35,626 bases of DNA, from positions 1-35,626 of the forward strand of contig JAISTS010000029.1 of the NCBI GenBank assembly GCA_031272455.1. Reading direction: 5' to 3'. The DNA comes from Tannerella sp. (GTDB taxonomy: Bacteria; Bacteroidota; Bacteroidia; Bacteroidales; Tannerellaceae). Positions 16,533 to 18,194 of this stretch are shown piece by piece; positions within the stretch are counted from its first letter, which is position 1, and each line of letters starts with the position of its first letter. A program made the translations under genes and the position numbers. The notes under the pieces are model-generated. The model ran no database searches and was not told the origin of the DNA. It was given only the letters and a program-made list of their open reading frames with translations.

Positions 16533-18194
16533 TCACAGTTCGGACGGCTGATAGTTCCACCCTTTCGCACGTCCCAGCGGCGGCTCGCCGGTTTCTGTCG
16601 GGAGGAACTTATCCACTTCGGGAAGTTCTATCGGCAAGTCCTTCAAATCCACCGTGTATGGCATTCCGTCCTTATAATAAATCGGGAACGGCTCGCCCCA
16701 ATATCGCTGGCGGCTGAAAATGGCGTCGCGAAGGCGGTAGTTGACTTTTACCTTGCCCAAACCATTGTCTTCAATAAAACGTTTGGTTTTGGCTATTGCT
16801 TCTATTACGGTTAAACCATTCAAAATCAAAGCATTTTCCATTTTCCATTTTCCATTTTCCATTGGGCTGTTCATCATTATTCCCTCTTTTGCATCGAAAC
16901 TATCCTCGCTGATGTCGGCGCCCTCAATCAATGGGATAATCGGCAATCCGAAATGCTTGGCAAAGGCATAGTCGCGGCTGTCGTGAGCGGGAACTGCCAT
17001 TATGGCACCCGTGCCGTATCCTGCTAATACATAGTCGCTTATCCAAACGGGAATTTCCTCGCCGCTAACAGGATTGATAGCATAAGAGCCTGAGAATACG
17101 CCTGTTACGCGGCGGTCGGCAATGCGCTCGCGCTCGGTGCGTTTCTTGGTCTGTTCTATATAGGCGGCGACTTCGGAACGCTGCTCGTCTGTGGTGAGCG
17201 ACTCAACATACTCGCTTTCGGGGGCGAGAACCATAAAGGTTACGCCGTAGATGGTGTCGGCGCGGGTGGTGAAAATCTTAATTCTATCAGGGGATTGCGG
17301 ATCTTGTCCGCAATGACGTACGATGGGAAAATCCATTTCCGCCCCTTCGCTACGTCCAATCCAATTACGCTGCGTTTCTTTGAGCGAATCGGTCCAGTCA
17401 ATCGTTTCGAGACCGTCGAGAAGCCGCTGTGCATAAGCCGATACGCGCAACGACCACTGCCGCATTTTACGCTGCTCAACCGGATAGCCGCCGCGGATGG
17501 AGATGCCGTCCTGCACTTCGTCGTTTGCCAGCACCGTGCCGAGTTTTGGGCACCAATTAACCATTGTATCAGCGAGATATGCAATGCGATAGTTCATCAG
17601 TGTTTCCTGCTGACGGCGCTCATTCCACGACAGCCACTCTTCGGCGGTGAAATGCAGTTCTTCTGTCTGCGCTATTTCGAGACCTTTATTACCCTGTGTT
17701 TCAAAACATTCAATCAGTTCCGAAATCGGTCGCGCATGCTTTGCCTGATAACAATAATACGAGTTAAACATCAGAATAAAAGCCCATTGCGTCCATTTGT
17801 AAAATTCCGGGTCGCAGGTACGCACTTCGCGGTTCCAGTCGAACGAAAAGCCAATCTTATCCAACTGCTCGCGGTAGCGGGCGATATTATTTTCGGTCGT
17901 AACGGCAGGATGCTGCCCCGTCTGGATGGCATACTGTTCGGCAGGCAGCCCATAGGCGTCGTAGCCCATCGGATGAAGTACGTTAAAACCGCGCAAACGC
18001 TTGTAACGGGCATAAATATCCGATGCAATATAACCAAGCGGATGCCCCACGTGCAAGCCCGCACCCGAAGGATAGGGAAACATATCCAAAACATAAAACT
18101 TCGGCTTATCAGGGTCAATATCAACCTGATACGTTTTATCAGCGACCCATTGCGCCTGCCATTTTTTTTCTATCTCTCTGAAATTATAATCCAT
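16533..18194 (-). CDS. leuS: Leucyl-tRNA synthetase, N-terminal fragment (truncated before KMSKS)
   Basis: 553 residues, against about 930-940 for the usual bacterial enzyme. The start [12 protein letters not shown] is normal. Present are the HIGH-type motif HVGH (48-51), the zinc/insert region (VNWCPKLG), the CP1 editing domain with [12 protein letters not shown] and [15 protein letters not shown], and the return to the catalytic core ([22 protein letters not shown]). The frame then stops 8 residues after [11 protein letters not shown]. The second half of the active site, KMSKS, the anticodon-binding domain and the C-terminal domain are missing, and the rest is not found in this window in any frame. 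The editing domain also carries two unusual in-frame insertions. It may be a split enzyme with its other half elsewhere, a pseudogene beside an intact copy, or an assembly join. Confidence 0.9.
16833..16863. repeat. Heptanucleotide tandem repeat (ATTTTCC x4) inside leuS
   Basis: Four perfect ATTTTCC units (16833-16860) plus ATT. In the coding direction this is a GGAAAAT repeat that adds the residues ENGKWKMEN to the LeuRS editing domain. Because 7 is not a multiple of 3, gain or loss of one unit would shift the frame. Confidence 0.85.
17286..17322. repeat. RPE-like palindromic element inserted in frame in leuS
   Basis: The core is a perfect inverted repeat, ATTGCGGA (17294-17301), a 5-base loop, and TCCGCAAT (17307-17314). 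The element gives about 12 extra residues ([12 protein letters not shown]) just before IFTTRADT in LeuRS. In another frame it reads VIADKIRNP, the familiar product of dispersed GTCATTGCGGA...TCCGCAATC repeats seen in many bacterial genomes. Confidence 0.7.

Follow-up and report, generated by a model that had tools for sequence, protein, structure and literature searches.

Leucyl-tRNA synthetase (LeuRS) is essential, and in Aquifex its HIGH and KMSKS motifs are carried on separate chains, the beta chain being 289 amino acids long. To our knowledge, natural splits of essential enzymes are rare and their origin has mostly been guessed. A two-subunit LeuRS has been described in Aquifex aeolicus (Xu 2002; Ma 2006); the title of the latter work places the split in the leucine-specific domain, and a passage that cites it refers to a tRNA-binding domain site. 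Among other synthetases, the available part of one report describes a split pheT in Altiarchaeales and a split alanyl-tRNA synthetase in Nanoarchaeota (PMC4975002), and in Mycoplasma pneumoniae a PheT engineered as two pieces, with a cut in a linker and a promoter before the second piece, is described as supporting growth (PMC12494982). Searches of the open-licence PMC literature revealed no split LeuRS described for Bacteroidota. Here, we describe a gut-type bacterium in which this essential enzyme of protein synthesis appears to be made in two pieces, each from its own gene. Comparison with relatives suggests that the front piece has moved alone between lineages.

The leucine-specific domain presumably lies after residues 460-496 of T. 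thermophilus LeuRS, just before KMSKS. Like the Aquifex enzyme, the LeuRS presented here consists of an N-terminal alpha and a C-terminal beta part; unlike the Aquifex split as the title of Ma 2006 words it, the cut is located upstream, between T. thermophilus residues 460 and 496, and does not fall in the leucine-specific domain. Moreover, beta has 393 amino acids here, the lineage is Bacteroidales, and alpha seems to have a separate history. A poorly conserved cut place, halves on different contigs and occurrence in related genomes are features shared with the archaeal splits, as far as the accessible text of PMC4975002 describes them; those, however, concern Archaea and other enzymes, and that text does not mention separate transfer of one half. 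The M. pneumoniae PheT, as presented in the accessible text of PMC12494982, was likewise cut at a linker, but is a laboratory construct of another enzyme.

The two leuS genes of one genome

The window, i.e., the whole stretch of DNA analysed, is a complete contig of 35,626 bases (C75) from a draft genome (G000) of 2.75 Mb in 139 contigs, estimated to be 85.5% complete. The features considered are as follows.

16533..18194, minus strand: alpha, the N-terminal leuS half of 553 aa with the HVGH motif and the editing domain; beta, the partner, is encoded outside the window
16533..16556, minus strand: tail NYQPSEL plus stop, after GRAKGW; tails differ among genomes, that of the sister genome G052 being similar
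18220..18227, minus strand: TACCTTTG, a promoter-like box of the Bacteroidota TAnnTTTG type, beginning 33 nt 5' of the alpha ATG
15530..16570, minus strand: PstS-like gene directly 3' of alpha, unrelated to it; other genomes have different genes after alpha
18330..19652, minus strand: dehydrogenase-like gene directly 5' of alpha; this order is kept in G052, with 92% amino acid identity
contig C22, 36673-37854, minus strand: beta, the C-terminal half of leuS, 393 aa, found by a profile search of the same genome

The initial annotation of the window held that the leuS frame stops at 553 residues, without KMSKS and the anticodon-binding domain, and this agrees with our results: the frame ends with its own stop, 16,532 bases of contig lie beyond the junction, and Pfam detects the N-terminal synthetase part (PF00133) and the LeuRS editing domain (PF13603) and nothing else. 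The distance from GRAKGW to the end had been given as 8 residues and is actually 7. In the TIGR00396 profile, alpha matches positions 1-470 with 587.7 bits, its neighbours in frame included, against a cut-off of 548.4, and it aligns with residues 4-460 of T. thermophilus LeuRS in two stretches. The promoter proposed before the frame is represented by the box listed above, whose pattern we take to be the Bacteroidota -7 consensus. As had been stated, an unrelated PstS-like gene follows on the strand, its match to TIGR02136 reaching 122.6 bits, under the cut-off of 206.6. It overlaps alpha at 16533-16570 solely by virtue of the GTG start of the longest open reading frame, and its true start may be a later ATG. 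The dehydrogenase-like gene on the other side presumably belongs to the Gfo/Idh group, a label assigned by eye.

A second piece had been predicted to exist, and the beta gene on C22 is such a piece. It matches positions 480-842 of TIGR00396 with 315.7 bits, which is under the whole-protein cut-off, as expected of a half, and aligns with T. thermophilus residues 496-876. Its Pfam matches comprise the anticodon-binding domain (PF08264) and the KMSKS end of PF00133, and KMSKS was invariant in the five betas compared. A single-chain model of beta, built on an alignment of five sequences, had a mean pLDDT of 65, with the first ~100 residues mostly below 50, and was not used. The proposed search for a second, full-length leuS, conducted with TIGR00396 over all contigs of G000, yielded none; the remaining seven of its ten matches (on C114, C101, C49 and C35) scored 24-82 bits and were taken as likely related class I synthetases. 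The two genes together thus cover one LeuRS, as in the Aquifex-type arrangement.

We consider it highly probable that LeuRS is encoded here by two genes whose products act as an alpha-beta enzyme, and that some lineages gained alpha horizontally. Alpha would contribute the editing domain and the front half of the class I active site; the rest of that site, with KMSKS, would come from beta, as would the anticodon-binding domain and the C-terminus. Because the break falls in a linker of variable length among full-length relatives (see below), the two chains could plausibly fold together and charge tRNA-Leu, which presupposes that they bind each other and are active. In the lineages that gained alpha, the resident leuS would have been reduced to its C-terminal half, i.e., beta.

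Cut site, distribution and signs of function

The break separates GRAKxW from YPLEL, within the linker that joins them, and it is the same in 14 genomes, which bears out the initial annotation in treating an independent split of LeuRS as a serious possibility. The linker of full-length relatives is either long (AWDT...VFPLEL) or short (e.g., GRAKNWTYKGYPLEL). The split alphas seen end with GRAKxWxY or GHAKxWxY and a short tail that varies by genome, and the betas begin with Met and a few residues followed by YPLEL; the cut is therefore situated in an already variable linker. All ten alphas of the genus have their own stop, and at least 129 bases of the contig or compared stretch lie beyond it.

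Stand-alone alphas with this break occur in ten of the 41 genomes of the genus (G000, G004, G005, G012, G014, G016, G018, G052, G053 and G056), in three of the best 80 named matches and in G190, which belongs to the family of G141; in G052, G053 and G190 the gene is spread over two contigs, and that of G190 terminates with a stop. Of the other genus genomes, 25 of the 41 have a full-length-type leuS, in some cases broken at a contig end. In the remaining six it is absent or fragmentary, with five lacking any LeuRS half at the thresholds used and G020 having a 142-aa piece. Among the best 80 of at least 455 named relatives, leuS is continuous in 75, cut by a contig end in two and split in three: Candidatus Symbiothrix sp. 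Zx50_bin5 (G139), Bacteroidales Rs511_bin43 (G140) and Rs511_bin46 (G141), whose names suggest an origin in termite guts.

Beta was found in seven of the 14 alpha genomes (G000, G016, G052, G012, G140, G141 and G190) and was not detected in the other seven (G004, G005, G014, G018, G053, G056 and G139); a beta-only genome was not seen among the 41 of the genus. In the family, which has 123 genomes including these 41, a beta match is present in 104, and frame length marks those of G000, G016, G052 and G012 as stand-alone. In the family of G141, 88 of 104 genomes have a match, and the stand-alone betas are those of G141 and G190. We disregarded short or contig-edge beta pieces in G133, G073, G043, G019 and G020, as well as an additional piece in G012, the last being the one inspected: it is located at a contig end, is 59% identical and has a full-length-type linker in frame, and was rejected as part of a contaminant's full gene. 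Six of the ten alpha genomes of the genus are without beta, for which P = 0.012 from incompleteness alone, and this counts against the two-gene reading.

The absence of beta from half of the alpha genomes would also fit a different account, in which alpha is a decaying remnant and an unassembled or unrelated enzyme charges tRNA-Leu. Drafts can indeed miss the whole enzyme, since six genus genomes have no LeuRS half or the mere 142-aa piece. However, comparison of G000 with G016 gives dN/dS values (NG86) of 0.096 (alpha) and 0.053 (beta), and in other pairs with computable dS the values are 0.03-0.12 and 0.05-0.14, respectively, many pairs being dS-saturated; both halves thus look to be under purifying selection. 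Translation of eleven alphas and six betas revealed no internal stops, and the catalytic and editing motifs are retained. Moreover, TAnnTTTG boxes occur within 70 nt upstream of 12 of 13 alphas (all but G053) and five of six betas (all but G140), in comparison to 3.5% of random 70-mers from the same loci; in this count the beta start of G141 is a few bases off the ATG, and G190 is excluded. We therefore regard a decaying alpha as very unlikely.

Histories of the two halves

In the full-length genomes G127, G085 and G092, leuS is followed by a yitT-like gene and rdgB. The same order, with beta in place of leuS, was found in G000, G016 and G012, and beta is followed by the yitT-like gene in G052; thus, in four of seven genomes, beta is probably the remainder at the ancestral leuS site. 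An intact leuS at a syntenic site, the finding named beforehand as an argument against a split, was not found, as the leuS-yitT-rdgB site contains the C-terminal half only. In G140, G141 and G190, beta is situated away from yitT-like and rdgB genes. The names rdgB and porZ pass NCBIfam cut-offs, and that of yitT comes from a weak match. Two observations count against the preferred two-gene reading, namely that an rdgB-containing frame adjoins alpha, not beta, in G053, and that the yitT-like gene of G052 is unlike that of its sister G000 (68%). The neighbours of alpha differ in most genomes; G000 and G052 have the preceding gene in common, and the close pair G056 and G018 shares several. G141 has both genes on a single contig in head-to-tail order, with ~450 bases between them.

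The halves themselves tell different stories, which the initial annotation had not foreseen. The alphas of G000 and G016 are 94% identical (dS 0.46), and the dS of their betas is 2.5; the neighbouring yitT-like gene and rdgB are 68% identical (dS saturated in both) and porZ 49% (dS 4.2). A tree built on 18 ribosomal-operon proteins places G000 with the full-length genomes G024, G046, G050 and G015 at a support of 100, and G016 elsewhere. This tree includes 34 of 38 genomes (two without an L2 match, as well as G041 and G055, were left out), and rows such as G053, G139, G140 and G141 fill a quarter to a third of its columns. EF-G encoded on the window contig is nearest to that of G052 (92%), followed by the G024 group (G015, G050, G046, G024; 86-89%), and is 83% identical to that of G016, in agreement with the place of G000 in the ribosomal tree. 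GlyRS of the same contig does not discriminate, with 85-88% to seven near-full-length matches and 83% to G042. The near-identity of the two alphas amid diverged neighbours, together with the ribosomal tree and EF-G, indicates that alpha appears to have crossed between lineages.

These data also bear on whether leuS was interrupted by a chimeric contig join, or one bin received its halves from different organisms. All genomes are fragmented drafts, alpha is distributed over two contigs in three of them, and beta is frequently absent. Against this, the identical cut with own stops and starts recurs in 14 genomes, and G141 carries both halves on a single contig. Misbinning of the window contig was rejected on EF-G and composition, the tetranucleotide make-up of the alpha and beta contigs of G000 being similar (r 0.94). 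Likewise, misbinning is unlikely in G190, as its alpha and beta stretches share their make-up (r 0.96-0.97, and 0.50-0.82 to the stretches of G000 and G016). An assembly or binning error is hence extremely improbable. Misassembly and pseudogene are both unlikely. The split LeuRS is real and recurrent, and it appears to be functional.

It could be argued that a functional split arose once and was inherited vertically, the discord between the halves being tree error. One clade of betas was, however, rejected, with p-AU of 0.0002 for six betas and 1.4e-6 for seven (G190 added). For alpha, one clade was not rejected for the same six (p 0.14) or for 13 (p 0.084), the latter being in favour of a single origin, and was rejected for seven (p 0.016), so the alphas may have more than one origin; both seven-half tests used the same 49 rows, the alpha-only rows (seven split) being left out. 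Also in favour of a single origin, eight of the split genomes of the genus group together in the ribosomal tree, although with a support of 38 only. The position of G000 at 100 with full-length species, despite an alpha that is nearly that of G016, speaks against it, and so does G190. At a support of 99, the betas of G141 and G190 fall with full-length LeuRS sequences from their own family. When placed with its own family, the alpha of G190 was rejected (p 0.005) and its beta was not (p 0.36), pointing to a native-type beta and a foreign-type alpha in this genome, the alpha being placed with another family. We thus find a single vertical split improbable, and it was set aside on the rejection of one clade of betas.

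Two further results count against the preferred two-gene reading. Firstly, the alpha of G141 was not rejected from its own family (p 0.12); its closest sequence is L125 from a Bacteroidia genome (82%), followed by L124 of Dysgonomonadaceae. In these own-family tests for G141 and G190, 14 rows were dropped and 42 left. Secondly, Porphyromonadaceae COT-184 OH4590 (G142, L253) has a full-length, short-linker LeuRS inside the alpha clade, and its beta part pairs with the beta of G012; its leuS is a relative that was never split or a gene that was joined again. For the tree showing this, 25 named loci (of 80) and 13 genus genomes with a full-length-type gene (of 25) were picked for spread, and one comparison left out the named loci L150-L198 (49 of 80); all trees are quick single-gene searches. 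Taken together, the evidence from the sequences is that the cut differs from the one reported for Aquifex and that the front half was probably exchanged between lineages. If a foreign front half does work with a native rear, an essential synthetase could evolve by half-swapping between species. As related bacteria show full-length, adjacent (G141, with a gene remnant in between) and dispersed halves, the steps of splitting become testable.

Genes and inserts associated with alpha, and repeats in the window

Several alphas are associated with nuclease-type genes. A DUF559 (PF04480) endonuclease-like domain is present in frame in the editing-domain region of alpha in G012 (L107:1452-3611, E 5e-29) and G018 (L259:7325-9409, E 8e-33); the insert holding it has ~130-190 aa, and look-alikes were seen by eye in the full-length genes of G017 (L067) and G023 (L085). 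Directly 3' of alpha, YhcG nuclease genes occur in G056 and G018 (with a look-alike in G139), a RhuM-family gene in G140, a DNA-methylase-like gene in G005, and others elsewhere. A four-helix-suffix gene occupies this place in three genomes:

G016, L099:7871-8623: match to TIGR04258 above the cut-off
G190, L369, about 520-1110: copy with an internal gap
G141, L251:8852-9016: remnant of 54 aa, located between alpha and beta

This gene was present in five of 18 genomes searched, a set to which G190 did not belong. Its matches to 23S-rRNA intervening-sequence proteins are below the cut-offs (PF05635, 21.5 bits against 33.8; TIGR02436, 23.3 against 24). The copies of G016 and G190 have 88-100% DNA identity per 60-column block from the ATG to near the end, outside the gap in G190. 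The preceding alpha blocks have 72-83%, apart from one of 97% and the 12-base start, and the sequences downstream are unrelated. Shared descent of the insert in these two genomes is weakened by the fact that high identity sets in with the insert and is lost again close to where it ends. Since the copies are far closer than the adjoining alphas, this gene either arrived at the shared position independently or moved alone, which suggests repeated insertion at one spot. As a tentative and rather doubtful extension of the two-gene reading, alpha might be a mobile half-enzyme: mobile genes of the nuclease type would invade leuS and cut it by their insertion, and the freed alpha would spread among Bacteroidales families and replace resident front halves, with the native beta staying in place.

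Repeats of other kinds are found within the window. Alpha contains an in-frame inverted repeat at 17294-17316 (ATTGCGGA/TCCGCAAT), which occurs once in the window, and four tandem ATTTTCC units, also in frame, at about 16833-16863; the protein stretches encoded by both insertions are missing from most relatives. At 8997-10525, two adjacent and mutually related genes are built of repeated ITDEAFLKEIALND-type units.
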